From Spirochaeta thermophila DSM 6192 (GTDB lineage: Bacteria; Spirochaetota; Spirochaetia; Winmispirales; Winmispiraceae), in contig NC_014484.1 in the NCBI RefSeq assembly GCF_000147075.1, positions 2,187,501 through 2,251,500 of the forward strand: DNA of 64,000 nt, in the 5' to 3' direction. Positions 2,611-45,661 of this stretch are shown here, piece by piece. Position numbers and translations under genes: made by a program. The notes under the pieces are model-generated. The model was not told the DNA's origin, ran no database searches, and saw only the letters and a list, made by a program, of their open reading frames with translations. Position 1 is the stretch's first letter. Every line of letters starts with the position of its first letter.

Positions 2611-2618
2611 GGGACGTG

Positions 2619-3032: not shown

Positions 3033-3040
3033 GCAGACCC

Positions 3041-3262
3041 CTACTTCGTGGTCATCTCGAACACGCCGTCCCAATCCTCGGGCGGCGGGTTCTTCATGTA
3101 GTGAAGACAGCGCGCGTAGTAGACCTTTGAAGGTCCATCCTCGGGATCGAGGGCCAGGGCCTTGGCGAACTCCTCCCTGGCTTTCTCAAACTCCATCATC
3201 TTGTAGTAGTTGCGCCCCCGGGCGAAGTACTCCAGGACCTTTTTCTTGGTCTCGGAGATCAC
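3041..3262 (-). CDS. Small TPR protein
   Basis: The 73-residue product is essentially one or two tetratricopeptide helices. The segment YYKMMEFEKAREEFAKALAL matches the TPR consensus, followed by DPEDGPSKVYYARCLHY. TPR units mediate protein-protein contact; no catalytic residues or export signal are visible. It lies 9 bp after the response regulator gene and 8 bp before the bactofilin gene, so the three are probably co-transcribed and may act together. Confidence 0.8.
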   Translation of the reverse strand: MISETKKKVLEYFARGRNYYKMMEFEKAREEFAKALALDPEDGPSKVYYARCLHYMKNPPPEDWDGVFEMTTK

Positions 3263-27289: not shown

Positions 27290-28332
27290 TTACTTCTTCT
27301 TCCTCTTCTCCCACTCCTCAACCTCCTTTGCAGGCTCCCAGTCATCATATTCCTCAGGATCAAAGGGACTCACCCGCTCAAGAAATATCCCCGTTACGCA
27401 CGTGTCGTCCCACCTCGTCCCCTTGTACACCTCCCTGATCTCAACACTCCACCTCCTTCGCCAGCCGCGGGAGCTTCACCACGTGAAACCTCACCACATC
27501 AGGAAACTCCACCTCTACCTCAAACGGCTCACCCCCATCCACCGACCGGATCACCGCCCGCTTCACCCGGTTGTTCATCTTGTACAGGTGCGGACGCAAA
27601 GGATCCACAAACCCGTTCAGCACCACCAGCGTGTTCGTCCCCTCACCCTTCCCCTCTACCTCCCACAACACCCCACCGGGCACCACCCGCCTCCCCTTCA
27701 CCGTCACCCTGATCTTCTCCCCTATCCCAGGCCACTCCACCCCCTCCACCCACGGCTCGATACTCGCACTATTGAACACGCGGGAATTCGCCTCTCTCCC
27801 AGGGCCAAATATGAAAATAAAGAGCTCCCGCATCTTCTCTCCTGTGTATCGGATCGTCCTCCCCCTCACCGTCTCCACCAGATACGAAAAAGGCTCCACA
27901 GACGCAATCCCCGTCTCCTCGTATATACTCCACCATAATATCTCTAGGTGTTCCTCCCTCATCTTCCTAAACGTCTCTTTATCCTACCCATACCGCATCG
28001 ATCGGCTTCGAAATACACATGTCCGACCACCCAGACGGCTCCACAATGTGATACACAAACCACCCCCCTCCCCATATCAACATGTACCGACGCCCGTTCA
28101 CCCTCACATACAGATATCCATCATCACCTTCCTCCACCATCTCCTCGTAGATCCACCAACTCCCTCCATCCTTAAACGCCCCCCAATCCTCAAAATAGAG
28201 TCTCCCTCCTGCCTCTCCTACAAAACAGAGCGGGAAATACATGGAAAACCCCACTCCTACTCCCACCTCGTGCCCTTGGACCACACCCACCATCCATAGC
28301 CCACAGACCATCCATACCCACATCCGCTTCAT
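27290..28332 (-). pseudogene. Exported protein with discoidin/NADase-type glycan-binding-like domain, two frameshifts
   Basis: Segment 1 (ATG 28332, strong GGAGGGA site) has signal peptide MKRMWVWMVCGLWMVGVVQG and ends at TAA 27979. Segment 2 (27962-27441, another frame) contains NTLVVLNGFVDPLRPHLYKM and NNRVKRAVIRSV. Segment 3 continues in a third register with EIREVYKGTRWDDTCVTGIF to TAA at 27292-27290. The last two together resemble, from memory, the C-terminal discoidin-like NADase-type glycan-binding domain of spirochaetal exported proteins (NNRVK... then KGTRWDDT). Two single-base shifts, near 27965-27980 and near 27441, restore one protein of roughly 345 residues. The decay of a coherent protein in three adjacent frames is the evidence. 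Confidence 0.72.
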
Positions 28333-28342
28333 CGTTCCCTCC

Positions 28343-29274
28343 TTACTCCTGTGTCCATAGTGGTGGATACTCACTATAGCTCCAGTACCTGCCAAAGAGA
28401 TCATACAGCTTCAGAAACGTCTCGTAGCCGTCCTTAAGCCCTCACTCATCATACACCGTCCCCTTGATGGCCTGAAGCACATCAGGAGGAGGCATGATGC
28501 ATCCATCACTCCCTGACCACACCTCCGTCCTCCTGTCAGTGTAGTACGCAGTGTGGAAATTCCACGCCGCATCCTCCTCATCGTCGTACCCACTCCACGC
28601 GATGATGTCCCCATCCATCACCACCGCATCGTGGAGTATCCCTACACTCTCAAAAGTCATTCCTGTGCCTTTGAAATTCTCTATTTTGTTATACCCCAGC
28701 CTCCACCACACATCGCTCACAATCGTATTCCCCTGCACCGTGCCAAACACAGGATGCTCGTACGACTGGTTCCGTATCGTCCCATCAGCCCCATCCTTCC
28801 ACAAAGAGTCCACACTCTGGACCGGTGAGAACTGGCGACGATCCAGCTCTTCTCCCTCTATACTCTGCTTTATCAATACCACTTCATCCAGCCCGAGATT
28901 CCTCCCCTTATGGAAGTTAGAAAAATAGCTCGCTCCCTGCCGGAACACTCCTCCCACACCACAAACCGCTCCTGAATGATCCCTCTCTCATCTACTCTCA
29001 ACGCAAGCATCTTATCCCCCACCTTCCACCCCAACTCCTCCTCCACATTGATCGCTACCGCCCCCGCTCCCGCATCACCACTCCGTTCCCATATCCTCTT
29101 CTCCTCATTCCACGAAAACCCCAGCCCCTTGAGCACCGCCTCCCCTCCAAGCCGCAACAGCTGCTCCTCACTCACCCACCCAGGAAGTTACCCCGTTCGG
29201 TAGATCGCCACCACCCCCGCATCGTCCACCTCCAACACATCCTTCAATGTCTGCGCATCGTAGTGCCTCGCATC
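28343..29274 (-). pseudogene. Broken tail module in frame with the RCC1 gene
   Basis: Reading on from the RCC1 stop (TAG, 29277-29275) in the same frame gives DARHYDAQTLKDVLEVDDAG and VVAIYRTG, then TAA, then LPGWVSEEQLLRLGGEAVLK and further to about 28950. A one-base shift near 28950 leads to FRQGASYFSNFHKGRNLGLD and on to a TGA at 28444-28442. After that TGA the same frame continues GLKDGYETFLKLYDLFGRYW to a final TAA at 28343. The lesions are thus one shift and two internal nonsense codons. The tail is of unknown function, Trp/Tyr-rich and with the same codon bias as the giant gene. It is either the lost C-terminus of the RCC1 protein or an abandoned C-terminal cassette of a large protein. 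Confidence 0.68.
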
Positions 29275-30426
29275 CTACTCCCCTTCCACTCCCTCAATCC
29301 CCAACTGCCCATACCCATTCTCCCCTATCCCCCATAAGCTCCCATCCTCCTTCAGCACAAACGCGTACAGCTCCCCTGTCTCAACCGCCTTCACCCCCTC
29401 CATCACCTTCACCCATGGATACTCAGGATCCCGTTCCCTCCCCACCTTCCCAAGCACCGTTTCCTCCGGCACCCACACACTCCCATCCTCCTTCAACGCA
29501 AGCGTCACAGCGTATCCAGAACTCACCTCCTTCACTCCCTCAAATACCTTTGTCCACCTCCACACATAATCCTCGCTCCTCACATAGTCCTTCTCCTTCA
29601 CCCTCAACCCCACTTGCCCTACCCGGTTGTCTCCCGCACCCCACAAGCTCCCATCCTCCTTGATCACAAACGAGTGCCACTTCCCCGCCCCCACCGCCTT
29701 CGCACCCTCCATCACCTTCGTCCACTCCTCTCTCCACCTCCTCTCCCCCACCCCAAGCTGCCCCGCAAAGTTAGTCCCCACCACCCACACACTCCCATCC
29801 GCCTTCAACGCCAGCGCGTGAGACTCCCCTGTCGCCACGTCCACCACCCCCTCCATCACCTTCTTCCACCCCATCCCCTCCTTCCAATTCATCGCAGGCT
29901 CCACTCCAAAGTCCGTATCCTCTTCCCATCCCCCTACCCACAGACTCCCATCCTCCTTGATCACAAACGAGTGCATCGCACACGCTGCGATCTTCACCAC
30001 CCCCTCCGCCACCTTCACCCACTCCATCCTCACCCACTTCTCCCTGTCCCATCTGTCCTCCTCCACAAGCCCAAGCTGCCCATACGTGTTCGACCCTATC
30101 CCCCACACAGTCCCATCCCCCTTCAACACCAGAATGTGACCTCCGCCCATGGCTACGTCCTCCACCCCACCCCACTCCCGTATCTTCACCCACTTCCGTA
30201 ACTCCTCCTCCCCCTCCCTCCTCATCAGCCGCTTCGCCAACCGCCCCACCCCCCACAAGCTCCCATCCTCCTTCAGCACCACCGAACTGATCCAATCAGC
30301 CGCCACCTCCCTCACCCCCTCCATCACCTTCACCCACTCCCCCACCCACTCCCTCTTCCACTCGTCCCCACTCACCACTCCCACCCCCACCAGCATCATC
30401 ATCACGAACACCACTGCTCTCTTCAT
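29275..30426 (-). CDS. Exported RCC1-repeat (beta-propeller) protein
   Basis: ATG 30426 (MKRAVVFVMMMLVGVGVVSG, signal peptide) has GGAGG 7 nt upstream; the ATG 6 nt earlier is too close to that site. The 383 residues contain about seven RCC1-type repeats, each with a V.EVA.G..H..VLKEDGSLWG.G.N.YGQLG pattern, for example SHALALKADGSVWVVGTNFA and HSFVIKEDGSLWGAGDNRVG. RCC1 propellers mediate protein binding; bacterial secreted forms are poorly understood. The gene is 25 bp downstream of the giant gene and probably co-transcribed. The open frame ends at a TAG beyond which coding-like sequence continues in frame. Confidence 0.85.
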   Translation of the reverse strand: MKRAVVFVMMMLVGVGVVSGDEWKREWVGEWVKVMEGVREVAADWISSVVLKEDGSLWGVGRLAKRLMRREGEEELRKWVKIREWGGVEDVAMGGGHILVLKGDGTVWGIGSNTYGQLGLVEEDRWDREKWVRMEWVKVAEGVVKIAACAMHSFVIKEDGSLWVGGWEEDTDFGVEPAMNWKEGMGWKKVMEGVVDVATGESHALALKADGSVWVVGTNFAGQLGVGERRWREEWTKVMEGAKAVGAGKWHSFVIKEDGSLWGAGDNRVGQVGLRVKEKDYVRSEDYVWRWTKVFEGVKEVSSGYAVTLALKEDGSVWVPEETVLGKVGRERDPEYPWVKVMEGVKAVETGELYAFVLKEDGSLWGIGENGYGQLGIEGVEGE

Positions 30427-30451
30427 CTTCATGCCTCCTCTCTTAAGTATT

Positions 30452-33400
30452 TCAGTAATAGTACGCATACGGCGCATGGCTCCTCCCGTACTCCAACGGA
30501 TCAAACCCAAACTCGATCACCCTCAGCTCCTCCAACCCATACCCTCCCCCTGTCCACCCTATCCACGGCTCGCCTACCCCCCCATCCGGAAAGAGCACGT
30601 TAAAGTGATAAGTATCAGAGTCTTCATTTTTCCACTTCTTAATCACAGGAAGCCATGTCTTCCCGTTCTCCCACACCAGGGAGGGATCGGTAAGGTATGC
30701 TCCTCCGGGGGATGTATACCCCTCATACGTGAGCCACGTGATCCCATCCTCTCGAAGTACCACCGGTACGAACTTATTAGGCGAGGCATTACCCTTCTCA
30801 TCTATCCCCCCGTTCCCAGGCCGCAGGATCCTCGAAAGCTCATCAAAGCTGTACCCCGCCTCTGCAGGATCCAGCAGCCTCACCAGCTGGTCCGTCACCC
30901 ACAACTCGGATACCGCATTGCACAGGCTCGGCCGCGGAAACCCATACACCGCCTCCAACACCTGCTGGTCGTGCCACCACTCCTCCGGCACCGCCTCCCC
31001 CTTCACCCCCGCATACCTCCCCAGCACCTCCTCCCCTATGTACCCTCCCAACGCACCCTCCCCCCCGTTCACCTGCTCCAGTACCCACAGGTACCCTCCC
31101 TTCAACGCACCCATCAGCGCATCCACCCCTATCTCCTTCCCTCGATTCACCTCGGTAAGCGTCTCCCACACCGGTATCCCATAGAGCTCATGCAACGTCA
31201 CCTCCCCTGTCCACCGCCGCTCCTCTATCTCCTCCGCCCCGTCGTGCAGCATCCCTCCCCCTATCATCACCTTCTGCACCAGCTCCTTCTGCTCATGCGA
31301 AAACGCTCCATACCCACCTCCACTCGTCATCCCAAACAGGATGTTCAACAGCCCCGTCTCCACTCCCCTCGCCCCCACCGTACCCTCCCGGATCCGCCTC
31401 GTGTCATATCGTCGCTCCACCACCTCATCCGTGAGCACCACCTTCCCGTCCCTCCACGTCACGTACTTCACGTCCCCATCCCCCACCTCCACCTTCAGCC
31501 ATCCCTCGCCATCATTCACCATCGTCCCGTCACGCTTCAACAGCCAGTAGTCCCCTCTCCACTCGTACTGGCTCGCATACCCCATGAGCCGCAGCACATC
31601 ACCCTCCAGGTAGGCCTCCGCCTCCTCCTTCATCCGCCCCTCGAGCGCCCCCTCCCCATACTGGGAGAGCACCAATCCCCCCATCCGCATGTGCGCAAGC
31701 GCAGCCCGCAGCGTCTCCTCCTGCTGCGCTTCCGCACTCCCCACCACCCCGTCTCGGTGCGCCTCGTGCGCGAGCACCACCCCAAACCCAAGCCCCTCCA
31801 CCTTCCCCTTCGCCACCTTGATCACACGCACCCCGTCCTCCCACACCGTCTCCGCCACCTCCCCCTCCCCTACCCCCTCCACATACTCGATCACCGCCCT
31901 CCCTGCAATCACATCCTCGTACAACCGCCTCCCTTCCTCATCCCCCGCACTCCAGTTCATCCGCATCCCCACCGCCTCATCCCCAAAGTGCCCGCTCCCC
32001 CAAATCCGCAGGTTCTGCCGCCACACCTCAAGCCCCCTCACCGCCTGCGCCACACGACCCCACCCTACGTTCACTCCCCCACTCCCTATCTGCCCGTACA
32101 CCCCACCCCTCCCTATGTGCACCTCGAACAGCCCCATGTGCACCTCCCTCTTCTTCCCATCATCCCCTTCCACACTGAGCCCCGTCAGGTCGTAGAAGTC
32201 AAGCACGTTGAACACCATCTCCCCTCCCATCGCGTACCTCGTCAGGTTCCCCGCAAGACCTCCCACGATCCCATGAAGCTGACTGCTCCACGTCCTCCAC
32301 TTCCTACCACGCCCATCGTCCAATACCCCGTACGTCCCAAGATCGAGAAGCCCCACCGTCGCGGTCTGTACCACTCCCGCCGCATACCCTATGAGCGCAT
32401 CCTTGCCTACCACGCTCTCCTTGAAGGCCTCTGCGTTCCACCTCAGACCCCCCTCCCCCAGCTCCACCGCATTGATCGCCCCTACGGCTGCGTTCGTCAC
32501 CACCTCCTGGTGTACGTTCAGCACGGTCGTGCCCACCACCCTCCCCAACCCTGTCGTCTGTGTCGCCAGGGTCTCCCCAAGACCCCCGTAGACTGCCCCT
32601 ATCCCCGCACTCACCCCGGTGCTCACCACCTTCTTCCCCAGCCCCAGCAGCACCTGGCCCGCGTCCTTGCCCGCACCTATGTCCGCCACCGCAAACACCA
32701 CGTCGTCCAGAAGCCCCAACACCATCCCCCCTCCAGGCATGAGCGCGTTCGCCACTATGCTCACCCCAAGGTCCACCACCGCACGCAGGTTCGGCGCCTT
32801 GATCCACGTCCCCCGGTCGTCCCACAGTTTCTTGTCCCACCACGGCGCACGCGCCTCCGCCTCCCCTTTCGCCTCCAGCATCTTGTGCATGCTGAACCAC
32901 CCCATGATCCGCCCCATCTCCCCGGCCCCGGGAAGCCGCACGTTCTTCTCCCACTCCCCTACCCCCACCCCAAGGTCCACCTCCTCCCCGCTCTTCATCA
33001 CCGGCGCATACCCCACGTACTCGTTGAACTCCCCATCACGTATCTCCAGCACCCGCCAGCTCCCGTCCGCATCCCCATCTTCCACCAGCTCCTGGTACGC
33101 TTCGTACGCCCCTTCGTCCACCTCCTCCTCCACCACCTCACGGTGCACCACCATCGTCCACGGTGACCCCGCTGCCATACCACCACCCATCAGCAGCCCC
33201 CACCACGGCCGTCCACCCTGCTCCCGCCACTCCTCCTCTGCCTGCTTCACGTACCGCACCGCCCCCGTCCCGAAGATCCGCTCCTGCTCCCCTTTCAGCA
33301 CGTCCATCATCTGCCGCACGTACACCTGCACCGCACCCGCCCCCACACGCCCATCTCCGTCCGCATCCACTCCTCCCCCCTCCACCATCTGCTCAAACTC

Positions 33401-36400
33401 CGCCACGATGTCCTTCACCTCGGTCCGGTACGGCCGGTAGTCCTCCACCCGGTGCCACTCGTACAGGTCCTCCCACAACGTAGACCCTATCAGGGTCTTC
33501 TTCACCCACTTCCTCCCCTCCTTCCGAAATCCCTCACTCAGGAACATCCGCTCGATCCCTTCCCCCACCTGCTCGTTCGCCTTCTCCACCTGCTCCTCAA
33601 GCTGCGCCTTCGCCTCCTCAAGCTGCTCCTTCGCCTGCTCGTACGCAAGGGTCGCAAGGTGTTCCTCGAGCCCTTCGTACTTCTCCTCCACATACCTCGC
33701 CACCAGCTCCATCACCTCCCCCGAGCTGTACTCGTCGGCTACGTGCGCCCACACCACCAGCGCCTCCTCCCCACTCCGCTCCGTCCACCGCTGCCCCAGC
33801 TCCACCAGGCCCGCAAGGTACTCCCGGTCGATGATGGTCCCATACAGCTCCTCCCGTACCTCCTCCACCCCGGTCGGAAGCCCTATGTCGGCCACCACGA
33901 ACGAGAGCACCGCCGCTATCGCCTCCTCCGCACGCTCACCAAGGGCCATGCACACCGCCTCGCTCTCCGCCTGCACCACCTTCCTCCCCGCATCCTCCAC
34001 CCACTCCTTCTGCGCCTCCACAAAGGCAAGATAGTGCCGGTCCCACTCCTCCCGCTTCTCCTCATACGCCGCTTCGTAGGCCTCCTCCCACTCCCGTTGC
34101 GCCGCCTTCACCATCGCCGCCCCCTTCCTGAAGGCCATCATCCCTCGACTCACGATCGCCTCCATCTGCTTCTCCCCCACCTTCCGCTCCTCCTCCACCC
34201 CTCGCACCAGCTGGCCCCACTGCTCACCCCATACCTCCATGAACCCTCCCATCCGCGCCTGCTCTATCACACCCCCCACTTCACCAAGGGCCCCCAACAC
34301 CACTCGGTGCACCTCGCCCCCCATGCCCGCCACCTCGTCCCGCAGCTCCCGGTACAGCGCCGCCTCACGAAGCAGCGCCACCTTCTCCTGCCCCTTCCCC
34401 ATACCCCTCACCCTCTCCTTCGCCTCCTCCCACGCCTCCCTCACCACAGCCTCCCGCCGCATCGCTCCCACGATCCCTACCACCTCGGCCTCCTTCCCCG
34501 CCCGAATCTCTCGCCGCTCCTCGTCGTCCCCTCCCGCCTTCTGTCCCTCCTCCCACTGCTCAATCGCCTCCCTCAACCACCGCGGCGCACCCTCCTTCCA
34601 CCCCTCCACCTTCTCCTCAAAGGCCTCCCGCTCCTCTTCCGTCCGCTCTACCTCCCCTCCCGCCCGCTCCCACTCAAGGTATGCCTTGAGAAGATACCCC
34701 TCCCGCATCCCCAACACCCCCTCCTTCGCCTCAAGATAGCTCCGCACCGCCTCCATCACGGCCTGGCCTTCAGCCCCTTCCTCCACCACCTCGAGGAGCT
34801 CAAGGTCTTCGTACGCCACATCACCTCCCCCCGCCACGTACGCTCGCCACGCCTCCCCTACCTCACCCCACTCCGCCGCCTCATCCCCGGCAACAGATCC
34901 CACCGCCTGCCGATACGCCACCTTCGCCTCCCCCACCTCGGCCTCCCAGAAGCTCCGAAGCCTCCCCACGAGCGAGGTGTCCGCCTCCCAGTCATCAGGG
35001 GTTCCCTCCAACAGGACCGAGACAAGGTCCCCACACCAACTCTCATCCTTCACCTCCACACCCACAAGCTCCCCCATCGCCTCCACATCGTCCCGATACT
35101 CGTCCATCTCCCACAGGGCCTCCAGGACCGCCTCGAGCCCCTCCGCTCCAGAGAGCGCCCCCGCCCGCGCAACCCATCCCTCGTACTCCTTATCCGCCGT
35201 GACAATCGCTTCAAGCGCATCCCTCAATCCAGCCACCGAATCGGTGAACCACTGCTCACCTCTCCTCTCCTTCTCTTCAAAACCCGCTCTGATCTCATCT
35301 CCCCCCTTCTTCCCTCCAGGATACTCCACATGTCCGTATGTTTCCCACTGTTTATACCCTTCCAGATCAAGCTCTCCGCTGTAAAGCACAAGTGCCTTGA
35401 ACACCCAATACCACTCCTCCTCGTGAACTCTCTCGTAGGCATCCCTGAGATCCTCTGCCAGACCTCGCGCATCTCCATAACGCTCCGCCTTCTTCTCGTG
35501 GAAGCCCGAACCAAAGACCTCCTTCATCTCCTCCCATACCTCACTATAGGCCTCATAATAGGGCTTGAGCATCTCCACTTGTCTTTTCGTCTCCTCATAC
35601 TCGCTTTCCCAGCCCGTAGGGTTCATGCTCTGGTATTCACTGTTATACTTCAGACTCCGAAGCTTCGCCACCGCCTGCTCGTATGCTCCAGGGGTATACT
35701 CCCAGAACAACTCCCATGTCCCTCCTTCCACCCTCCCAGCAAGCTCCTCCCACACCACCGCTCGTATATACCCCCTCACGTCCTTCACTCCCACCCCTCT
35801 CCCCACATACCACGAGGCCCACCGTCGCAACGTCTCCTCATATTCTGAGAACATCTCCCCAGCCTCCACCTCCGTAGCAAGCCGCTTCTTCTCCTCTTCC
35901 GTCAGCCCCACATGTCCAAACCCCTTCCCCTCCGCCCCACCTGCGTTCACATCCCGTATCTGTATCTCTGCAAGGGCCTTCTTCAGCGCCCGCTCAGCCT
36001 CGGCCCGCTTCGCCCTCACGTAGGTAGAGGCATCCTCCACCAGCTCGGCAAGCCGTACCGCCGCCACCTGCATCCTGAAGGCTTCCTCATACCTCTCCCA
36101 CTCCTCCTCCACCACATCCTGCTCCCGCTGCCCCTCAAGACCCTCCCGCAGCGCCGATGCCACCTCCCCCGCACGCGCCTCCATCCCCTTCGCATACGCC
36201 AGCCGGTCGTCGGGATCTACCAGCCCGTACAGGTCTGCCGCACCTTCATCCCCACTCGCCACCCCCTCCTCAAGATACCGGCTCTCCGCATACTCCACCA
36301 CCGCCTTCGCCTTCCTCAACGCCCACTTCGCCTCCTCAAGCGCCTCATACGCCGCCTTCGCCCCCTCATACGCCTTCTCATAGTCCTCTACCGCAGCCAC

Positions 36401-39400
36401 ATACCCCGTCACCGCAGCCTCCCACGCCGCCTTCGCATCCCTCACCTCCGCCTCAGCTCCCTCCATCGCCTCCTCATACGAGGCCTTCTTCGCTGCCACC
36501 TCAGGATCGTCCTCCACAATCGCCCCGCCCTCTCCCGCAAGAAAACACACCTCCCCCTTCGCCCGCAGATCCTCCACCACCGCACGCTCCTCTCCCCTCA
36601 TCCCCAGATACGTCCCCTGCGCCTCCTCTTCGGCTACCACGTACCCCGACCCCTCCCCCACCAGCTCCTCATACCCGGTAAGCCCCTCCCGTTCCCCTCT
36701 CCTCACCTCCTCCACCTCTCCCTTCACCGCCTCCCAGTAGGCCCCTCCTATCCCGTCACCCTGCGCCCTCGCCGCCTCATACGCCCACACCCCCTCCCGA
36801 TACGCCCACGCCGCCTCCGCCACCACCCCACAGTCCGCATCCGCGGTGTACCCAAGCCCCTCCCCAGGCTCGCTCAGATCCTCGCCGAGCGGATCCGGGG
36901 TCACGTCGTACGCCTCATCCTCCTCCCCTCCCTCAGGGGTCTCCCCAGGATCGTCGTCCACAAGGGCTTCCACCAGATACTGCCGCAGGTTCCCTTCCTC
37001 CGCCGCCGCCTCAAGCTTCCTCACCACCTCCACCCACCTCTCCCCCTCCCTCAGCCGGTCCCTCCCCTCCTCACACCGCACCTTAAGACCCTCCACCGCC
37101 CTTCCTTTCTCACGCTCGTACGCCACCTCCACCCGCTTCCCCACCACCTCCTCCACCTCCCCCTCACTCCTCGCATACCACAGCCCCACCTCACCGGGCC
37201 ACACCCCCTCCTCCCACCACACCTCAGCCGCCGCAACCTCCTCCTCCCCAAACCCCAGCCCACTAAGATACGTCCCAAGCGCACCGTCAGCCCCAGGCAC
37301 GTACCCCCGTACCGCATCGATAAGCGCCGCCACACGTACCCCTCCCTCCCCTACCTCATCCACCGCTCCCTTATACGCTCCCTCCACCTCAGTCCACCGA
37401 CGCCCCCGCACCACCACCTCCCTCAGAAGATAGTACGCCCCATACCCCCCCTTCCGGTACACCTCGTACCACCCCTCCTCCCCCGCCACCTCATCACCCA
37501 CCCCCCACGCCTCCGCGACCTTATCCTCCCACCTACTCCACCCCTCCACCGCGGTACACAGGTCCCACACCGCCTTCCCACACGCCGCCTCCCACAAGGC
37601 CTCATGCCCCGTCCCCCACGCCGGTACCGCCTCCTCCACCTCACCTACCACCTCCTCCCACCGATCCGCAAGAAAGCCCGCTACGTCGTACGTCCCGCTC
37701 TCCTTCTCGTAGTAGGCTCCCTTCACATCCTCCCACTCATCCACTACCTCTCCTATCGCCTCATCAATCACCTCATTCCCCGTCGCATATTTTTCAACCG
37801 ACTCCTCCCCGTCCCACCCCTCAAGCCGTAGAAGCGCAGCCATACGCCCTACCTCATCCGCCACACCCCTCACCCACTCCTCAAGCGACTCCTCGTTCGT
37901 GAACAGCCACCGAAGGTCCCCCTTCGCCTCCTCAACCTCCCCCTCCTGCTCCTCCATCGCTTCCTCGATCTTCTCCCGCCACCCCTCCCACACCCCCTCC
38001 ACGTACGCCCGCGCCTCCTCGTCAACTACCGCCGTCTCCTCATCCACCCACGCATCCCACCCGCCTGCCGCACGTACCTCCCCCGCAAGGTACGCGTACA
38101 CCTCTTCCGGGACCGCCTCCTCACCCCACAGATAGGCCGCCCGTACCCCCTCCCCTACCCCCTCATCCACCACCTCCTCATACCGCTCCCATAGCTCCTC
38201 CACCTCCCCCCGCAATGCCTCAACCGCAGCCTCCCCCTCAACCCGCTCATCCCCCTCCCCATACACCGGCTCCTCTCCCGCATCACCTCCCCGCATCCTC
38301 GCCTCGTACGCCACCGCATACCGCTCATACCCCTCAAGCCACTCCCTAAGCCCCTCCTCCTCATACCCAGGAAGCTCCCCCGCCACCTCCTCCACTACCG
38401 CTCGCAGCTTCCCAAGGTGCACCGCAAGCCCTTCCTCCGCCCACGGCACCTCCCCTCCCTCCCACTCACCCCACAGCTCCTCCACCCTCTTCCACCTCCC
38501 CTCCTCTCCGTGCCATAGCCCCTCCTCCTCACCCACTTCCCTCACCTTCGCCCTCGCCGCATCCCACACTCCCCCCTCCCCTCCCCACGCCTCCACTTCC
38601 TCCCTCACCCCCTCCCACCGCGCAGCCGCACGCCACACCCCCTTCGCCTCCGCAACCTCTCCCACATGCAGCAGCAACAGGTCCTCCCCCCCCTCCCCCT
38701 CAAGGATGCTCCCCCCTCGCCGATACCGCTCCCACTTCGCCCACTCGCTCAGCTCCCCTCGATCCCCTCCTTCCCCTCGATATATCGCCAAGAGGTCCTC
38801 CACCTTCGCCACGTGCGCTTCGAGGTCTTCCATGAAGGCATCCCTCTCATACTTCCCCGTCTCCTCGTCCCGGTACCCCTCCTTCTCCTCCTCCCAGTAC
38901 CGCCTCGCCCACTCCCCAAGCCACGCCTCTACCCCCTCACACGCCTCCTCAAAGGCATCCTCCGGCCCCTTCCCCCCTCCAACAGCCGCCCGGTAGGCCC
39001 CCACCAGCCCCCCAAGCAGCTCCGCTTCCGCCTCAAGCCGTGCCTCCCAGTACGCCCTCTCGGCCTCCTCCACCCCCGGTACTACCTCCCCACCTGCGTC
39101 CCCACCCTCCACCGCCACCCGCAGAAGCGCTCCCACCACCTCCTTCTCACCCTCCCGCTCCCTCTCCCACATCTCCCTCACCGCTGCAACCCCCTCCATC
39201 GCAGCAGCGATCTTCCCCTTCTCCTCATCGGTCACTTCCCCATCCGCCACCGCCTCGTCACATGCATCCCACCACCTCCCCACCGCCGCCTCAAGCATCT
39301 CCCACTCCCCACTCCCCCGCTCCATGCCCCACCCCACCCCTACCTCGTCCACCCACTCCCACGCCGGCTTCCCCACCACTCCCTCTACGTCCCCCTTCCC

Positions 39401-41098
39401 TACCTCCTCCACTTTCTCCACTTTCTTCCCAAACGGATCCCACACCACCTCCCCCTCACACCCCTCATACGCACCCACAAGCCGCTCCAGCACCCCGTGC
39501 ACCCCCTTCCACTTCTCCCACCACCACCTCTCCGCCGCCGCCTCATAGTACGCATCACCCGCTTCCTTCACCCCTTTCCCCTCCACCAGCCCACGCAGCT
39601 CGAGCAACCGTCTATACCCGGCCCGAAACCGCTCACGCTGCCACGCCACATCCTTTACCTCAAGCGTCGCCAAAAACTCCTCATACGCCTTCACCACCCC
39701 CTCAAGCTCACGCCGCGCCTCCTCGTACGCCGCCTTCTTCCCCCCTACCTCAGCCCCCGCCTCGGCCCGCGCCGCCTTCGCCTCCACCAACACCCGCTCC
39801 GCCACCCGGTACGCCTCCAGCGCCTCCTCATACCCCGCCTTCGCCGCATCGTACGCCGCCCGCGTCTCGGCCTCTCGCTCAGCTCCCCCTCCCCCCACCT
39901 CCTCCGCATACGCACACACCGCCTCCCATACCTCCACCTCCCGCGCCCACCACGCCTCCTCCAGCTCCGCCTTCACCACCTCCCGCTCCCACCGCGAAAG
40001 ATACACGTCCTCCCACCGATCCACCGCATCCTCACCCCATACCTCGGCCCCCACCTCGTCCACCCCCACCGCCTCCCCATACACCTCCTCAAGCCCCCTC
40101 CTCCCCTCCTCCTCATACCCCGCACACATCTCCCACTTCCCCAACCACCACCCCGCCTCCGCAAGGGCTCTGCTCCCTCCCTCGAGCACATCCCTCGCTC
40201 CGGCATACTTATGCGCCTCCGGAAGACCCCCCACCCACTCCCCAAAGGCCTCGTATACCTCCACCACCACCTCCCACCGCTCCACCTCCCTCAGCCGCCC
40301 CTCAAGCGCCCTCTCTATGTCCGCCCTCACCCCCTCCCTCGCCCCCTCCCCATACCGCCCAACCCCCCACTCCTCTACCCCAGCCCACACCCCAGCAGCA
40401 CCCGCCTCCCCTCTCACCGCCTCCCACACCTCACCCAACGGAAGCGTGCTCCATGGCATCTTCACCAACTCCCCCTTCCACCTCTTATACCCCTCCTCCA
40501 TCGCCCCCTTCATCGCCTCCACCCCCTCCTCCACCACCCGCACCTTCTCCTCACTCACCCCCAGCCGCTCCATCCACCACTCCCAGTTCTCCCTCGCCAT
40601 CTCCCTCATCGCCACCGCATCTCCCACCAGCCCCACCAGCTGCCCCACCCGATCACTATACGCCTCAGCCCGCTCCCCTACCTCCTCCTCCATCCTCGCC
40701 CGCACCTCCCTCTCCAGCTCCTCAAGCTCACCCCACCGCTCACCCCACTTCGCTTCCCCCTCCTCCCTCACCCGCTCCACCTCCTTCACCCACCGCTCCC
40801 GCTCCGCATACAGCTCCTCCCACACCGCCTCCCACTCCTCCTCCCCCTCCTCCCACCGCTCCCCTGCCTCTCGCTCCCACGCCATCCGCCTCCTCAACAA
40901 CTCACCCTCCGCCTCCTCCCACCTCATAAGACCCTTCTCAAACGCCTCCTCAAACCGCTCCTTCCACCCCTCACTCCCCCCTCCCCCCACCAGCGCCGCC
41001 CGCACCCCCTCTATCGCACCCCATACCTCCTCCTTCGCCTCCTCTATAAGCCCCCTCGCCACCTCCTCCCCTCGCTCCCCCTCCCGCTTCCCCCGCAA
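30452..41098 (-). CDS. Giant coiled-coil protein with glycine-rich hydrophobic pre-C-terminal region
   Basis: An unbroken 3548-codon frame. Residues 1 to about 2560 are Glu/Ala/Val/Trp/Tyr-rich and helical, with repetitive stretches such as KKAAYEEARRELEGVVKAYE (near 440) and ALEEAKWALRKAKAVVEYAE (near 1590). An EF-hand-like loop DADGDGRVGAGA lies near 2575. Residues about 2770-2960 are Gly/Ala-rich and hydrophobic (LMPGGGMVLGLLDDVVFAVA). The C-terminal 550 residues include GFGVVLAHEAHRDGVV near 3108. The C-terminal part resembles a family of giant Leptospira proteins that I recall as TIGR04388; this is unverified. The listed start is a TTG; coding-like sequence continues upstream in other frames, so the true N-terminus is uncertain or lost. 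No signal peptide is visible in this frame. The coding strand is extremely purine-rich. Confidence 0.82.
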   Translation of the reverse strand: MRGKREGERGEEVARGLIEEAKEEVWGAIEGVRAALVGGGGSEGWKERFEEAFEKGLMRWEEAEGELLRRRMAWEREAGERWEEGEEEWEAVWEELYAERERWVKEVERVREEGEAKWGERWGELEELEREVRARMEEEVGERAEAYSDRVGQLVGLVGDAVAMREMARENWEWWMERLGVSEEKVRVVEEGVEAMKGAMEEGYKRWKGELVKMPWSTLPLGEVWEAVRGEAGAAGVWAGVEEWGVGRYGEGAREGVRADIERALEGRLREVERWEVVVEVYEAFGEWVGGLPEAHKYAGARDVLEGGSRALAEAGWWLGKWEMCAGYEEEGRRGLEEVYGEAVGVDEVGAEVWGEDAVDRWEDVYLSRWEREVVKAELEEAWWAREVEVWEAVCAYAEEVGGGGAEREAETRAAYDAAKAGYEEALEAYRVAERVLVEAKAARAEAGAEVGGKKAAYEEARRELEGVVKAYEEFLATLEVKDVAWQRERFRAGYRRLLELRGLVEGKGVKEAGDAYYEAAAERWWWEKWKGVHGVLERLVGAYEGCEGEVVWDPFGKKVEKVEEVGKGDVEGVVGKPAWEWVDEVGVGWGMERGSGEWEMLEAAVGRWWDACDEAVADGEVTDEEKGKIAAAMEGVAAVREMWEREREGEKEVVGALLRVAVEGGDAGGEVVPGVEEAERAYWEARLEAEAELLGGLVGAYRAAVGGGKGPEDAFEEACEGVEAWLGEWARRYWEEEKEGYRDEETGKYERDAFMEDLEAHVAKVEDLLAIYRGEGGDRGELSEWAKWERYRRGGSILEGEGGEDLLLLHVGEVAEAKGVWRAAARWEGVREEVEAWGGEGGVWDAARAKVREVGEEEGLWHGEEGRWKRVEELWGEWEGGEVPWAEEGLAVHLGKLRAVVEEVAGELPGYEEEGLREWLEGYERYAVAYEARMRGGDAGEEPVYGEGDERVEGEAAVEALRGEVEELWERYEEVVDEGVGEGVRAAYLWGEEAVPEEVYAYLAGEVRAAGGWDAWVDEETAVVDEEARAYVEGVWEGWREKIEEAMEEQEGEVEEAKGDLRWLFTNEESLEEWVRGVADEVGRMAALLRLEGWDGEESVEKYATGNEVIDEAIGEVVDEWEDVKGAYYEKESGTYDVAGFLADRWEEVVGEVEEAVPAWGTGHEALWEAACGKAVWDLCTAVEGWSRWEDKVAEAWGVGDEVAGEEGWYEVYRKGGYGAYYLLREVVVRGRRWTEVEGAYKGAVDEVGEGGVRVAALIDAVRGYVPGADGALGTYLSGLGFGEEEVAAAEVWWEEGVWPGEVGLWYARSEGEVEEVVGKRVEVAYEREKGRAVEGLKVRCEEGRDRLREGERWVEVVRKLEAAAEEGNLRQYLVEALVDDDPGETPEGGEEDEAYDVTPDPLGEDLSEPGEGLGYTADADCGVVAEAAWAYREGVWAYEAARAQGDGIGGAYWEAVKGEVEEVRRGEREGLTGYEELVGEGSGYVVAEEEAQGTYLGMRGEERAVVEDLRAKGEVCFLAGEGGAIVEDDPEVAAKKASYEEAMEGAEAEVRDAKAAWEAAVTGYVAAVEDYEKAYEGAKAAYEALEEAKWALRKAKAVVEYAESRYLEEGVASGDEGAADLYGLVDPDDRLAYAKGMEARAGEVASALREGLEGQREQDVVEEEWERYEEAFRMQVAAVRLAELVEDASTYVRAKRAEAERALKKALAEIQIRDVNAGGAEGKGFGHVGLTEEEKKRLATEVEAGEMFSEYEETLRRWASWYVGRGVGVKDVRGYIRAVVWEELAGRVEGGTWELFWEYTPGAYEQAVAKLRSLKYNSEYQSMNPTGWESEYEETKRQVEMLKPYYEAYSEVWEEMKEVFGSGFHEKKAERYGDARGLAEDLRDAYERVHEEEWYWVFKALVLYSGELDLEGYKQWETYGHVEYPGGKKGGDEIRAGFEEKERRGEQWFTDSVAGLRDALEAIVTADKEYEGWVARAGALSGAEGLEAVLEALWEMDEYRDDVEAMGELVGVEVKDESWCGDLVSVLLEGTPDDWEADTSLVGRLRSFWEAEVGEAKVAYRQAVGSVAGDEAAEWGEVGEAWRAYVAGGGDVAYEDLELLEVVEEGAEGQAVMEAVRSYLEAKEGVLGMREGYLLKAYLEWERAGGEVERTEEEREAFEEKVEGWKEGAPRWLREAIEQWEEGQKAGGDDEERREIRAGKEAEVVGIVGAMRREAVVREAWEEAKERVRGMGKGQEKVALLREAALYRELRDEVAGMGGEVHRVVLGALGEVGGVIEQARMGGFMEVWGEQWGQLVRGVEEERKVGEKQMEAIVSRGMMAFRKGAAMVKAAQREWEEAYEAAYEEKREEWDRHYLAFVEAQKEWVEDAGRKVVQAESEAVCMALGERAEEAIAAVLSFVVADIGLPTGVEEVREELYGTIIDREYLAGLVELGQRWTERSGEEALVVWAHVADEYSSGEVMELVARYVEEKYEGLEEHLATLAYEQAKEQLEEAKAQLEEQVEKANEQVGEGIERMFLSEGFRKEGRKWVKKTLIGSTLWEDLYEWHRVEDYRPYRTEVKDIVAEFEQMVEGGGVDADGDGRVGAGAVQVYVRQMMDVLKGEQERIFGTGAVRYVKQAEEEWREQGGRPWWGLLMGGGMAAGSPWTMVVHREVVEEEVDEGAYEAYQELVEDGDADGSWRVLEIRDGEFNEYVGYAPVMKSGEEVDLGVGVGEWEKNVRLPGAGEMGRIMGWFSMHKMLEAKGEAEARAPWWDKKLWDDRGTWIKAPNLRAVVDLGVSIVANALMPGGGMVLGLLDDVVFAVADIGAGKDAGQVLLGLGKKVVSTGVSAGIGAVYGGLGETLATQTTGLGRVVGTTVLNVHQEVVTNAAVGAINAVELGEGGLRWNAEAFKESVVGKDALIGYAAGVVQTATVGLLDLGTYGVLDDGRGRKWRTWSSQLHGIVGGLAGNLTRYAMGGEMVFNVLDFYDLTGLSVEGDDGKKREVHMGLFEVHIGRGGVYGQIGSGGVNVGWGRVAQAVRGLEVWRQNLRIWGSGHFGDEAVGMRMNWSAGDEEGRRLYEDVIAGRAVIEYVEGVGEGEVAETVWEDGVRVIKVAKGKVEGLGFGVVLAHEAHRDGVVGSAEAQQEETLRAALAHMRMGGLVLSQYGEGALEGRMKEEAEAYLEGDVLRLMGYASQYEWRGDYWLLKRDGTMVNDGEGWLKVEVGDGDVKYVTWRDGKVVLTDEVVERRYDTRRIREGTVGARGVETGLLNILFGMTSGGGYGAFSHEQKELVQKVMIGGGMLHDGAEEIEERRWTGEVTLHELYGIPVWETLTEVNRGKEIGVDALMGALKGGYLWVLEQVNGGEGALGGYIGEEVLGRYAGVKGEAVPEEWWHDQQVLEAVYGFPRPSLCNAVSELWVTDQLVRLLDPAEAGYSFDELSRILRPGNGGIDEKGNASPNKFVPVVLREDGITWLTYEGYTSPGGAYLTDPSLVWENGKTWLPVIKKWKNEDSDTYHFNVLFPDGGVGEPWIGWTGGGYGLEELRVIEFGFDPLEYGRSHAPYAYYY
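31819..31857 (-). repeat. Source copy of the 39-bp direct repeat inside the giant gene
   Basis: Identical to 27242-27280, same orientation, 4.6 kb apart. Here it is in frame within the C-terminal region of the giant protein. Confidence 0.85.
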
Positions 41099-41103
41099 CG
41101 ACG

Positions 41104-41690
41104 CCCTATCCTCCTTCGCAAGCCGCTCCCCCCCACCCCCGCTCCCACTCCACCCACCTCACCACCTCCCCCCAATACCTCCCCTCCATCTCCTCCACCA
41201 CCCCCTCCACATCCCCCCACGCAACCCCATACCTCTCAACCCCCTCCCTCACCCCCTCCTCCACCTCGCCATCACCTCCTCCACCACCCCTCTCACCTCA
41301 CCCTCACCCACTACCTCCTCCTCCCATACCCCCTCCCGCTTCACCACATCCCCCACCTCATCCCGCTCCCACCCCCCATCCTCACCACGCTCATATACCT
41401 CCCCCCAACCACCTCCCGCACCAGAGCCACACACTCCACCCACCCCACTCCCCCCACCCCCCCCACCACCTTCCTCACCACCCACTCCCGCCACGCCTCC
41501 TCCACTCTCCCACTCACATCCACCCCACCACCTTCACCCCCTCCTCCACCCACCTCCTCCACCCCCCCTCATCCCCCGCCATCATCGCCCGCTCCTCGTA
41601 CCACCCCCATACCTCCTCCCACGCCTCCTCCCCCCACACCCCATACCCCCCCCCACCACCACCACTTGCAGCATACCCCTCCCATGCTAC
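41104..41690 (-). pseudogene. Frameshifted N-terminal coding of the giant gene
   Basis: Upstream of the giant frame, protein-like Glu/Trp/Val-rich segments continue in alternating frames. In transcription order they are GEEAWEEVWGWYEERAMMAG, SGRVEEAWREWVVRKVVGG, VGDVVKREGVWEEEVVGEGE, EGVERYGVAWGDVEGVVEEM ending VRWVEWERGWGG, then ERLAKEDRASLRGKREG in the giant frame. Joining them needs at least four single-base changes, several at runs of G (for example the G7 near 41130 and the G9 near 41650). Either the 5' end has decayed or the sequence has homopolymer errors. Confidence 0.6.
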
Positions 41691-41693
41691 ACT
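41666..41693 (+). promoter_or_regulatory. Promoter of the RND operon
   Basis: TTGCAG (41666-41671), 16 bp and TACACT (41688-41693). The start codon of the first gene follows 9 nt later without a Shine-Dalgarno, so the transcript has almost no leader. Confidence 0.55.
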
Positions 41694-41702
41694 CCCTACA
41701 CC

Positions 41703-42437
41703 ATGATTCTACTAAACGTAACACCACCTTCAAAACATGACCTACTCGTATCTCCAAAATCTCCAACTTCTCCAATATGCCGCACTTTTTGCCCATACCT
41801 CCCCCTTTTACTGCTCGTAGTATCACTTACCTCCTGCAACTATACCCCCTCCCCTCAGGAACTGTCAAGTTTACACCAGGCGGAGGAACTCTATACCAAA
41901 GGTCGGTTTACCTCCGTGGTGGAACTCCTCCAACCCTACTCCTCTTCGCATCACCCACCCCTCCTCCTCCTCTATGCAAAGTCCGCCATACTTGCAGGAC
42001 ATCCGGATCTTGCAATCCCACCTCTCACACGCCTCCTCAAACTCTCACCCTCACACACCGACGCCCGCATATGGCTCATACGGGCTCACATCGCCCGAGG
42101 AGACCTCACCACCGCCAAACACCTCCTTCTCGCCCTCCTCCCTCTCAATCGAGAAGACCCCCGCCTCGCCTATCTCGAGGGACTTATTGCAGAAAAAGAA
42201 GGCAGACTCCAGGATGCCATCCTCTCCTATCACAGGGCTGCACTCTTCGAAACAGAGCTCGCAAAGACCTACGTTGCCCTAGGAGGACTGTACTTCCGCT
42301 TCCTCCAGTACGAAAAGGCCCGAGAATATATCGAAAAAGCCCACAGCATCCTTCCCCCCGAACACCCCCTCTCCCGACCCCTCACGGAACTCACGGAAAG
42401 TCTCAACCTCTCACGATCAGGAGGAACACCCCCATGA
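41703..42437 (+). CDS. TPR lipoprotein heading the RND efflux operon
   Basis: The 244-residue product has a hydrophobic segment LPLLLLVVSLTSC ending in a lipobox cysteine near residue 45, unusually far from the ATG at 41703. It is followed by TPR-type helices (AILSYHRAALFETELAKTYV, then ALGGLYFRFLQYEKAREYIE). It is probably anchored in the inner or outer membrane leaflet facing the periplasm, with a scaffold role for the efflux machinery. The stop overlaps the next ATG (ATGA). Confidence 0.75.
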   Translation: MILLNVTPPSKHDLLVSPKSPTSPICRTFCPYLPLLLLVVSLTSCNYTPSPQELSSLHQAEELYTKGRFTSVVELLQPYSSSHHPPLLLLYAKSAILAGHPDLAIPPLTRLLKLSPSHTDARIWLIRAHIARGDLTTAKHLLLALLPLNREDPRLAYLEGLIAEKEGRLQDAILSYHRAALFETELAKTYVALGGLYFRFLQYEKAREYIEKAHSILPPEHPLSRPLTELTESLNLSRSGGTPP

Positions 42438-42935: not shown

Positions 42936-44314
42936 ATGAAACGGATCTTTTCCCTGCTCCTCTTCCTGAGCTGCACCCTTTCGACTGTGGGGATCGAACC
43001 TCTCACCCTCTCCCTCCAGGAGGCCATATCCCTCTCCCTCGAGGCATCCCCCGATCTCTTCCAGCGAGAACGGACCCTCGCTCTTGCCCATCTCTCGTAT
43101 AGACTCGGCTTCTATGCCTACGCCCCTCTCCTTTCCCTCTCATTCTCGGACTCGCGTACCGTCTACTACTCGAATCCCGACACCCTCCAAACTTCGCTCG
43201 GTGCCCAACTCTCCATCCCCCTCTATAGGGGAGGTCGACGTATACTGCAGCAGGAAAGCACGCGCCTTTCCCTCAACACCACCCAGGAAGAAGTTCTCAC
43301 GACACGTGCAGAGACCACTATTACCTGCATGCAGGCCTACTACCAGGTGCTCATCGCCCAGGAAAAGCAGAAACTTCTCCAGAACATGGTCTCCCTTGCT
43401 CGGGAACAGCAGCGTATCGCCGAGGTGGAATATCGCACAGGTGCAATACGGGAACTCGACCTCGTGGAGATCTCCCTTCAGGTCCAGGAGATGGAACTCT
43501 CACTCTCGGAAGCGGAGAGATCACTTCGGGAGAGCGAATATACCCTCAAGAAGCTACTGGGAGTTCCTCCTGAGACCGAAATACTGCTCACAGACACGCT
43601 CCCCCCTCTTACAGCGGTCTCAACCTCCCTAAGATCCCTGAGCCTCTCATCCAGATCGCCCTCTCCCACAACAAAGAGCTCAAGGCCCTCTACTTCCAGA
43701 TGCGTTCCCTCGATATTCAGAAGAAGATGCTCTCATCACAGTGGTACCCTGATGTGGATCTTCAGACAAGCATCAGAGTATCAGGAGAGGACTTCCCCCT
43801 CAGTCTTCCTGGCTTCTCGGTGAAGTTGAGCATATCCCTCCCCTCCGCTCCGGTACCTTTTGCTCTGGACACTTCCTTTGACCACACCCCCCAACAATCC
43901 CACGGCCGCACCATCTCCACCCAGATATCAACTCCCCGAACCCTCGATTTCCTCATCTCACCACAGGAAGTCGCGCTCCAAGAGACACTTCTCCTCAAAC
44001 AAAAAGAAGAAAAGGAAAAGGATCTCGCCTTCTCCCTCACCCAGCTGCTCGAGGAATACCACTGGGCGAGGAAACAGATCGATCTCCTGAGAAAAGGGAT
44101 ATCACTCGAAGAACGAAAGTATGAGATCCTCGAGACAGAGGTAGAACTGGGGAAAACCACCAGAATCGACCTGGTGAAAGCCCAGAACGATCTTCTGCAA
44201 CAAAAGCTCTCGGAGCTCAATTACGTGCTCCAGCTCCTCATGAGGGAGAGGAACATGGAACGCATCCTGGGAATCACCCCCGGAAGCCTCATCTCCTTGG
44301 AGGCAGAAGAATGA
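42936..44314 (+). pseudogene. TolC-family outer-membrane channel gene with one frameshift
   Basis: From ATG 42936 the first frame encodes signal peptide MKRIFSLLLFLSCTLSTVG and the TolC helical pattern (LTLSLQEAISLSLEASPDLF, then YRTGAIRELDLVEISLQVQE). Near 43601, at a run of six C, the coding register shifts. The second frame continues with LNLPKIPEPLIQIALSHNKE, then LETEVELGKTTRIDLVKAQN and LLQQKLSELNYVLQLLMRE to TGA at 44314. One extra C in the run would give an intact protein of about 459 residues. The rest of the operon is intact, so a sequencing error or a phase-variable C tract is as likely as true loss. The stop overlaps the adaptor ATG. Confidence 0.78.
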
Positions 44315-45660
44315 ATCGGACCACATTCCTCCTTCTTGTGGGAGTCCTTCTCTCTCTTGCTGGATGCGGGGAAAGGGCCCCTGAGAGGACAGGATCCTCA
44401 GTCGTCCCTGTAGTAGAGGTGCGCCGTGTTCACATGGAAAAGGTAGAACCGGTGATCACTTCATTCGGAACCGTCACCTATACCCAGAAGGCCGATGTTA
44501 CCACCCAGGTGGACGGGACCCTCGAACGGTTTTTCAAAGAAGAAGGCGAACGAGTGAGGGAAGGAGAACCTGTGGCCCGACTCTCCAATATCCAACTGGA
44601 AATCAGAAAAATCCAGGCCCAGAGTGCCCTAAAGAGCGCGGAGGCCCAGGCCCGGCTTGCCGAGGCAAGGTACCGGGATGCACTCCTTCAAGCCGAGACC
44701 AGGTTCCTCTCTCTTGAAAAGCTCCTCGTACAACGGGAGTCTCTCCTCCATGACATCGCTACGCTGGAAAAAGAATACCAAGATAGAAAGATTCTCTTCG
44801 AGGCCGGAGGAATTCCAGAGGACACGCTCAGAGATGCTGAAAACGCACTTCTTAAAGCCCGCAATGAACTGAAGATACTGGAGAAAAATATCGAAACCGC
44901 CTCCATTGGCCTGAGGGACGAGGATATCCTCTCGGCGGGGTTTCCTTTACCAACCTCCTTCGATGAAAGGAAAAAACTCCTCATACGACTCAACACCCGG
45001 GTGGAAGAGGCCCAAGTAGAGGTGGCCAAGGCCCAGGTTGAAGTCGCAAGGGCGGAGATCCAATCGGTAGAAGCCTTGTCGGACGAGACGATCCTCCGAA
45101 GCCCTATCGACGGAGTACTCGGTACGCGGTACGTAGAGCCGGGGGAATACCTGAAGGAAAACACCCGCGTCTGTACCATCTTCTCATCAGAGGATGCGTG
45201 GGTTGTCTTCTCGATTCCGGAGAAGGAGGCCCTTCTCCTCAAAGAAGGCCTGGAGGCGAATATACACGTCGAAGCACTCGACCAGACGCTCACCGGAAGG
45301 ATTGACGCTATCTCCCCCTTCGTCGACCCTAAGACGGGTAATGTTACGGTAAAGGCAAGACTCCCTCGCTTCCTCAGAGAGGCCCGCCCTGGTATGTTCG
45401 CCCGTGTGTCGGTAAAAACGGGCACTACCGTGGATCGCATCCTCCTTCCCAAAGAGGCCCTTCTCCACGAAGAGGGGGATAAAGGGGAGGTGTTTGTGGT
45501 ACGAAACAATCATATCTTCCGACGCACTCTCACCCTGGGGGTATCCCGGGAGAACAAAAAAGAAGTGTTGGAGGGACTCAATGAAGGGGAACTGGTGGTC
45601 ATCAACCCCTCTCCCCTCCTCCGCGAAGGCCAGGAGGTGGAGGTGGTGGAAATCGAGTAA
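44311..45660 (+). CDS. RND efflux periplasmic adaptor (membrane fusion protein)
   Basis: The 449-residue lipoprotein starts MNRTTFLLLVGVLLSLAGC. It has the HlyD/AcrA layout: lipoyl half-motif TTQVDGTLERFFKEEGERVR near residue 65, a long coiled-coil hairpin (residues about 95-250), the second lipoyl half with ILRSPIDGVLGTRYVEPGEY, and a beta-barrel with VFSIPEKEALLLKEGLEANI. It links the inner-membrane RND pump to the TolC channel. It overlaps tolC by 4 bp. Confidence 0.9.
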   Translation: MNRTTFLLLVGVLLSLAGCGERAPERTGSSVVPVVEVRRVHMEKVEPVITSFGTVTYTQKADVTTQVDGTLERFFKEEGERVREGEPVARLSNIQLEIRKIQAQSALKSAEAQARLAEARYRDALLQAETRFLSLEKLLVQRESLLHDIATLEKEYQDRKILFEAGGIPEDTLRDAENALLKARNELKILEKNIETASIGLRDEDILSAGFPLPTSFDERKKLLIRLNTRVEEAQVEVAKAQVEVARAEIQSVEALSDETILRSPIDGVLGTRYVEPGEYLKENTRVCTIFSSEDAWVVFSIPEKEALLLKEGLEANIHVEALDQTLTGRIDAISPFVDPKTGNVTVKARLPRFLREARPGMFARVSVKTGTTVDRILLPKEALLHEEGDKGEVFVVRNNHIFRRTLTLGVSRENKKEVLEGLNEGELVVINPSPLLREGQEVEVVEIE

Positions 45661-45661
45661 C

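Follow-up and report, generated by a model that had tools for sequence, protein, structure and literature searches.

A giant open frame of Spirochaeta thermophila DSM 6192, probably a decaying polymorphic toxin gene of an undescribed spirochaetal family

What does a bacterial gene of 3548 codons encode, and is it still whole? The question is raised by Spirochaeta thermophila DSM 6192, whose genome is a single contig (NC_014484.1) of 2,472,645 bp. We analysed the 64,000 nucleotides at positions 2187501–2251500 of this contig (the window, whose own coordinates are used below), where such an open frame occupies 30452–41098 on the minus strand. The original prediction, made from the sequence alone, had recorded this frame, Glu/Trp-rich coding continuing upstream of it, and a C-terminal third with a hydrophobic region, an AHEAHRDG region and a tail, all of which are present as described. 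From comparison with relatives, we consider the gene quite probably a decaying member of an undescribed spirochaetal family of polymorphic toxins. The case is computational and consists of a protein family with variable C-terminal tips, the pairing of tips with downstream partner genes, orphan cassettes, linkage to an operon, and breakage in the window.

The longest stop-free run in 200 dinucleotide-preserving shuffles of the same strand was 263 codons, and the two other sense frames over the gene contain 149 and 161 stops. Third codon positions are 68% G and, because the codons are so strongly G-biased, the product is rich in Glu, Gly, Ala, Val and Trp (E 17.7%, G 13.9% and W 4.4%). The GC skew is extreme, down to −0.78, across 28000–42000, which spans the giant gene and its partner, and the related strain DSM 6578 has been listed as a G-quadruplex outlier (PMC6539912). 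The gene comprises the following parts.

30452–41098, minus strand: giant open frame of 3548 codons, opening at TTG and encoding stalk, core and C-terminal tip; relatives in other genomes
41099–41796, minus strand: degenerate 5′ coding for the signal peptide and N-terminal region, interrupted by stops and by four or more register changes
34289–41098, minus strand: charged, coiled-coil-like stalk, residues 1–2270; its N-terminal part aligns with relatives
31511–33088, minus strand: conserved family core (alignment A1), a hydrophobic helical region followed by an HExxRxG...ET...H domain
32129–32821, minus strand: Gly/Ala-rich hydrophobic helical region, residues about 2760–2990, putatively membrane-inserting
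31589–32011, minus strand: zincin-like domain with HEAHRDG (residue 3111, 31748–31768) and ETLRAALAHM (31688–31717); weak fold match, Z 4.6–6.5
30455–31108, minus strand: variable C-terminal tip with Cys 3393 (LCNAV) and His 3498 (YHFN), possibly papain-like

From the N-terminus, the order is a broken signal region, the stalk, a pre-core segment, the hydrophobic region (the sole hydrophobic stretch of the protein), the HE domain, a linker and the tip. Across relatives, the core alignment keeps H-E, R, G, E-T and H of the HE domain invariant, with HEAHRDG as the window version. The motif kept is HE(A/S)xRxG, followed further on by ET...H, and an HExxH zinc site was not found in the core domain. 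Structure prediction, proposed in the original prediction for the C-terminal region, worked well for the core (an 881-residue model with a predicted local distance difference test score, pLDDT, of about 80–95 over much of residues 50–500) and did not give a fold for the tip. Foldseek alone returned no significant match for the core model or for the model of the SDGC tip described below, and PDB sequence profiles of these two domains yielded nothing useful.

Relatives of the last 1000 residues were found in 12 of 41 genomes, mostly inside very long open frames. With the core alignment, whose sequences are ∼25–33% identical to that of the window, as query, members turned up in 97 of 395 Spirochaetia genomes, representing 50 of 133 genera, and elsewhere in the phylum there were just weak traces. 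Against genome contigs, a single-sequence query found no relatives and the alignment query found 31, while the viral contigs and plasmids searched held none. Complete members are ∼1900–4100 amino acids long, with a Sec signal peptide at the N-terminus. An N-terminal segment of the stalk is conserved, as is the core (window residues about 2270–3210), and the similarity ends before the C-terminus; only the last 200–400 residues differ among members. Scans of the whole protein, its C-terminal third and smaller pieces against Pfam and NCBIfam gave nothing meaningful. The family is unnamed and has no model in either database, and we found no earlier description of it in the open-access literature searched. 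A 25,910-residue open frame in one genome (G133:C22, locus L067) was discarded as an artefact, as the stretch holds a long run of N.

The tails of 63 cassettes, which we compared, split into many unrelated clusters, with the core conserved throughout. Pfam recognises M23 in eight tails (best E 2e-15), M15 in one and CHAP in one. The biggest cluster, SDGC, has 14 members, among them an orphan cassette in the window, and carries the motif H...S[DN]GC, whose His, Ser, Gly and Cys are invariant in eight sequences. For its predicted model (predicted template modelling score 0.75), the 29 leading structural matches (Z 8.2–5.5) are essentially all L,D-transpeptidases, mainly YkuD-type and including the antibacterial effector Tlde1a, with unrelated entries beginning at Z 2.2; Pfam PF03734 (YkuD) matches one relative at E 0.088, short of the cut-off. 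The tips retain the catalytic motifs HxH (M23) and H...S[DN]GC, and a Cys...His pattern is present in several other clusters. Judged by these sequence and model matches, the recognised tip activities appear mostly to concern peptidoglycan. The sequence of the window tip itself had just two marginal matches elsewhere (E about 0.006–0.008).

If the tips are toxins, what protects the producer? A candidate lies directly downstream of the giant gene.

29275–30432, minus strand: secreted RCC1-like propeller protein of 385 amino acids with a signal peptide, 22 nt past the giant gene; putative periplasmic immunity protein

A same-strand open frame within 180 nt follows 58 of the 63 cassettes, at a median gap of 14 nt. 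These partners look secreted in 38 of 57 cases, compared with 76 of 238 control frames (p = 3e-6), which is consistent with a periplasmic target. Homologous partners are shared by 31 of 67 same-tip pairs and by 49 of 1586 different-tip pairs, a result that none of 2000 permutations reached. Many of these 49 pairs, such as those of L013 or L080 with the SDGC group, join remote members of one tip superfamily. The pairing holds at all levels of core identity, and tandem cassettes with cores 87–100% identical mostly have different tips and different partners. We infer from this pattern that the tip-partner pairing is the signature of toxin-specific immunity. Partner folds (FGE-sulfatase, Ank, LRR, WG, TPR, propellers and SH3/glycan-binding) are of kinds that are common in immunity proteins. 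The partners of the Cys-type tips (downstream of L015, L062, L070, L064 and L090) are mutually homologous and FGE-sulfatase-like, and the corresponding tip clusters are remotely related.

Beyond the partner gene lies a second cassette, in pieces.

28363–29274, minus strand: broken orphan cassette with an H...SDGC L,D-transpeptidase-like domain, longest piece an open frame at 28442–28957; intact in the sister genome
27501–28332, minus strand: broken partner of the orphan cassette, with an open frame at 27979–28332 as its secreted N-terminal piece; intact (345 amino acids) in the sister genome

The sister genome (G001; 2,560,222 bp) belongs to the same genus and is the closest among the genomes compared. 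Its flanks are 92–94% identical to the window up to 27241 and from 56074. Between them it carries, intact, an RCC1-like gene (389 amino acids), an SDGC cassette (279 amino acids), the secreted partner and a second SDGC cassette. It lacks the giant gene along with all that follows up to 56 kb, including the operon described below. Two transposase-like genes, named by eye from their translations, stand in the place of the giant gene and operon (L140, 9376–12244), which suggests that these were lost through insertion sequences. The orphan's partner, as preserved in the sister genome, has matches among the proteins that accompany SDGC tips in other genera, eight of them at E 6e-15 to 3e-36. Between the window and the sister genome, the RCC1-like gene changes rapidly, with a ratio of non-synonymous to synonymous substitution (dN/dS) of 0.62, compared with 0.15 for a flanking gene, and its frame is kept in both. 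Tandem orphan cassettes sharing the core occur at four further loci (L063, L065, L071 and L091). Up to six core copies stand at one locus, in L063 (G048) and L065 (G221), the latter genome having one 3707-residue giant followed by five orphan cassettes.

The family thus has the anatomy of polymorphic toxins: a conserved carrier with a variable end, known effector domains, a tip-specific downstream gene, orphans, and an export signal in relatives. A polymorphic-toxin-like carrier with a membrane-insertion region before its tail was one of two products considered in the original prediction, and the family comparison supports it well. In the systems reviewed by Zhang et al. 2012 (PMC3482391), a long exported carrier likewise has an exchangeable C-terminal toxin domain, an adjacent immunity gene and orphan cassettes, and NlpC/P60 and L,D-peptidase toxin domains are already listed there for other carriers. 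They differ in their carriers, the one described here being a giant coiled-coil protein that has a hydrophobic and zincin-like core of its own and in which Pfam shows no RHS or filamentous-haemagglutinin repeats, and in the wall bias of the tips, the mostly secreted partners and the linkage to an operon of resistance-nodulation-division (RND) type. CdiA/CdiI shares the giant stalk, the C-terminal toxin, the immunity gene directly downstream and the orphan cassettes. Here, however, no CdiB-type partner was noted beside the window gene, the giant protein has no Pfam match to haemagglutinin/two-partner secretion repeats or to an RHS/YD repeat shell, and the tips are mostly wall-aimed with periplasmic partners. 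The type VI effector Tlde1a and its immunity protein Tldi1a (PMC9638812) share the L,D-transpeptidase fold, the motif H...S[H/D]GC and the paired immunity protein, whereas the tip here forms one covalent chain with a giant exported carrier, and no type VI secretion genes were seen beside the window gene.

Is the window copy whole? As the original prediction had it, coding continues upstream of the giant frame through at least four register changes, and it is recognisable to about 41796. The N-terminal profile of the relatives scores 63 bits against the main frame, beginning at about 41116, and then gives weak colinear pieces in other frames, at 41395–41258 and 41615–41535. Alignment to intact relatives puts the missing N-terminal length at ∼240–280 residues, which fits a start near 41796, and this putative start is preceded by a Shine-Dalgarno-like AGGGGAGG. 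A promoter-like site lies further upstream.

41839–41868, minus strand: promoter-like site TTGACA-18-TATAGT with 11 of 12 matches, upstream of the putative start; by consensus only, with 2 such sites found and 2.0 expected by chance

On these alignments, the 5′ coding is one continuous ancestral gene, now broken at at least four places. A simple phase-variable switch at the 5′ end was rejected, given at least four separate register changes. Since the window copy has no intact frame for the signal peptide, its product as it now stands is unlikely to be exported.

The register changes, together with a split TolC-like gene (below), could instead be sequencing or assembly errors in an intact gene, which would fit the toxin reading and not decay. 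In favour of error, the region is rich in G/C homopolymers, the changes fall on or close to such runs, the immunity gene has kept its frame and the remaining 10.6-kb frame is clean. The changes cluster, however: there are none at the 25 C6+ runs within the open frame and at least four among the 10 runs upstream (Fisher p = 0.004), which favours real 5′ decay over random homopolymer error and argues for decay without proving it. Furthermore, breaks are also seen in the orphan cassette and its partner, both as a stop and as frame changes, and the sister genome has lost the whole giant gene. We therefore regard error as an unlikely explanation. In the window, breaks affect the giant gene at its 5′ end, the TolC-like gene and both the orphan cassette and its partner, while the 3548-codon frame and the RCC1-like gene have stayed whole. 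Taken with the loss in the sister genome, this pattern looks like the decay of a system in this species. The window giant gene reads as a decaying copy, with sequencing error possible at homopolymer sites.

On the other side of the giant gene is a divergent operon, which, like the partner gene and the broken orphan cassette, the original prediction had not noticed.

41703–42437, plus strand: TPR lipoprotein, divergent; a neighbour of giants kept in other genera
42936–44314, plus strand: TolC-like outer-membrane factor in two overlapping open frames, as the reading frame shifts near 43.6 kb in the vicinity of a C6 run
44311–45660, plus strand: HlyD-family periplasmic adaptor
45494–47125, plus strand: Big_5 Ig-like protein (a)
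47137–48678, plus strand: Big_5 Ig-like lipoprotein (b), the co-occurrence marker
48700–51696, plus strand: RND transporter 1
51684–54638, plus strand: RND transporter 2

OEP, HlyD and ACR_tran proteins are thus encoded together beside the giant gene, with the OEP gene split in the window. The colinear operon adjoins the giant in about 24 of the 39 loci examined (∼13 divergent and ∼11 codirectional), and the last RND gene in some loci ends just 126–500 bp ahead of it. With the Big_5 profile as operon marker (E ≤ 1e-30), we found the operon in 55 of the 57 genomes whose giant frame reaches at least 1900 residues, and the marker was absent from 287 of 298 genomes without the core (odds ratio 89). 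It was also absent from several genomes with orphan-size cassettes only (G028, G048, G179 and G233) and from the sister genome. The operon would, on this association, export the giant protein.

The following mechanism is consistent with these findings. Intact members would be Sec-exported giant proteins of about 2000–4000 amino acids that build a long coiled-coil stalk, at the end of which a hydrophobic segment, probably membrane-inserting, precedes the zincin-like domain. That this domain may process or release the tip is speculation. The exchangeable tip would usually attack or modify the peptidoglycan of another cell, and the producer would be shielded by a periplasmic immunity protein, secreted or lipid-anchored, from the next gene downstream, which in the window would be the one for the RCC1-like propeller protein. 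Downstream orphan cassettes of tip and immunity gene may supply replacements by recombining through the shared core. The linked TolC/HlyD/Big_5/RND operon probably encodes the machinery for export or assembly. We give about an even chance to the more specific proposal that this is an undescribed delivery system, in which a dedicated set of TolC, HlyD and RND components, two Big_5 proteins and a TPR lipoprotein exports or displays a giant single-chain stalk with an exchangeable wall-attacking tip; this would amount to RND-driven protein export that has a polymorphic toxin class of its own. RND tripartite efflux systems such as BesABC of Borrelia (PMC2279261) have the same TolC-like factor, HlyD-type adaptor and RND pumps; here, by comparison, two RND transporters, two Big_5 proteins and a TPR lipoprotein are tied to a giant toxin gene, and the substrate would be a protein. 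Apparently new are the carrier, its breadth in Spirochaetia, the preference for wall-directed tips alongside secreted partners, and the link to an operon of RND type.

Several points weigh against the toxin reading. The window tip has no Pfam or NCBIfam match, no fold was predicted for it (pLDDT < 50), and its papain-like assignment comes from the Cys/His pattern and a weak top ranking alongside the Cys-type tips (probability under 2%). An enzyme motif was not seen in a few tips (L067, L081 and L060/L061). The dN/dS of the RCC1-like gene suits diversification or relaxed constraint alike. The operon counts are uncorrected for phylogeny, although the association is very strong, and protein export is not a known activity of RND pumps. 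Toxicity and its neutralisation, secretion and delivery, and the role of the operon are what we infer. A convincing partner is also absent in some members; at L023 and L092 the gene that follows is instead a dihydroorotate dehydrogenase electron-transfer gene. These two loci (G012 and G055) encode 1935-residue members with an unusual tail, the L023 contig being recorded as a sheep-rumen spirochaete, and this lineage possibly has a different function.

Could the machine instead act on its own cell? A giant periplasmic or surface scaffold might place a peptidoglycan enzyme for remodelling of the wall, with the partner as its regulator, and the wall-directed activity of most recognised tips, the often secreted partners and the linked tripartite envelope complex would all suit it. 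Tips, however, swap between near-identical cores within one genome, with partners swapping too, and orphan cassettes accumulate. The family is also patchily present (the 97 of 395 genomes above) and lost in the sister, where conservation would be expected of a housekeeping remodeller, and we hold this explanation to be improbable. A little less credible still is an adhesin or surface fibre whose C-terminal domains merely bind the wall or anchor the fibre. Its length, coiled-coil stalk, signal peptide and export-like operon would be those of a fibre, and the surface fibre named in the original prediction is possible for the stalk without being the whole story, yet the tips retain catalytic motifs, the partners are tip-specific, and the variable end is the C-terminal one, past the zincin-like domain. 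That the frame is a chance product of a G-rich strand and was never functional, as its long open antisense strand (up to 904 codons) might suggest, is refuted by the short runs in the shuffles and by ∼30% identity over more than 500 residues with intact giants from many genera, and its probability is negligible.

The toxin reading offers a function for some of the largest unexplained spirochaete proteins, present in roughly a quarter of the sampled Spirochaetia genomes. If it is true, spirochaetes bear a class of interbacterial weapon that is largely peptidoglycan-directed with periplasmic immunity, a drug-pump-like operon has been recruited as an exporter, and the sister genomes are a natural case in which the toxin was lost and the immunity kept.

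Giant proteins of spirochaetes have been modelled before, as TIGR04388 (Lepto_longest), which shares with this family its great size, a Trp-rich coiled coil and a Gly-rich hydrophobic part. The original prediction had noted a resemblance to such Leptospira proteins, which proved at best remote: TIGR04388 has no match in the window genome even at E ≤ 10 (curated cut-off 45 bits), and membership was rejected on score. Two other family members have sub-cut-off matches to Lepto_longest, and the profile-profile alignment spans just 69 coiled-coil columns. A coiled-coil frame of ∼5000 residues from a different class of the phylum (L146, G511) also has a sub-cut-off match to Lepto_longest and may represent a further giant family.
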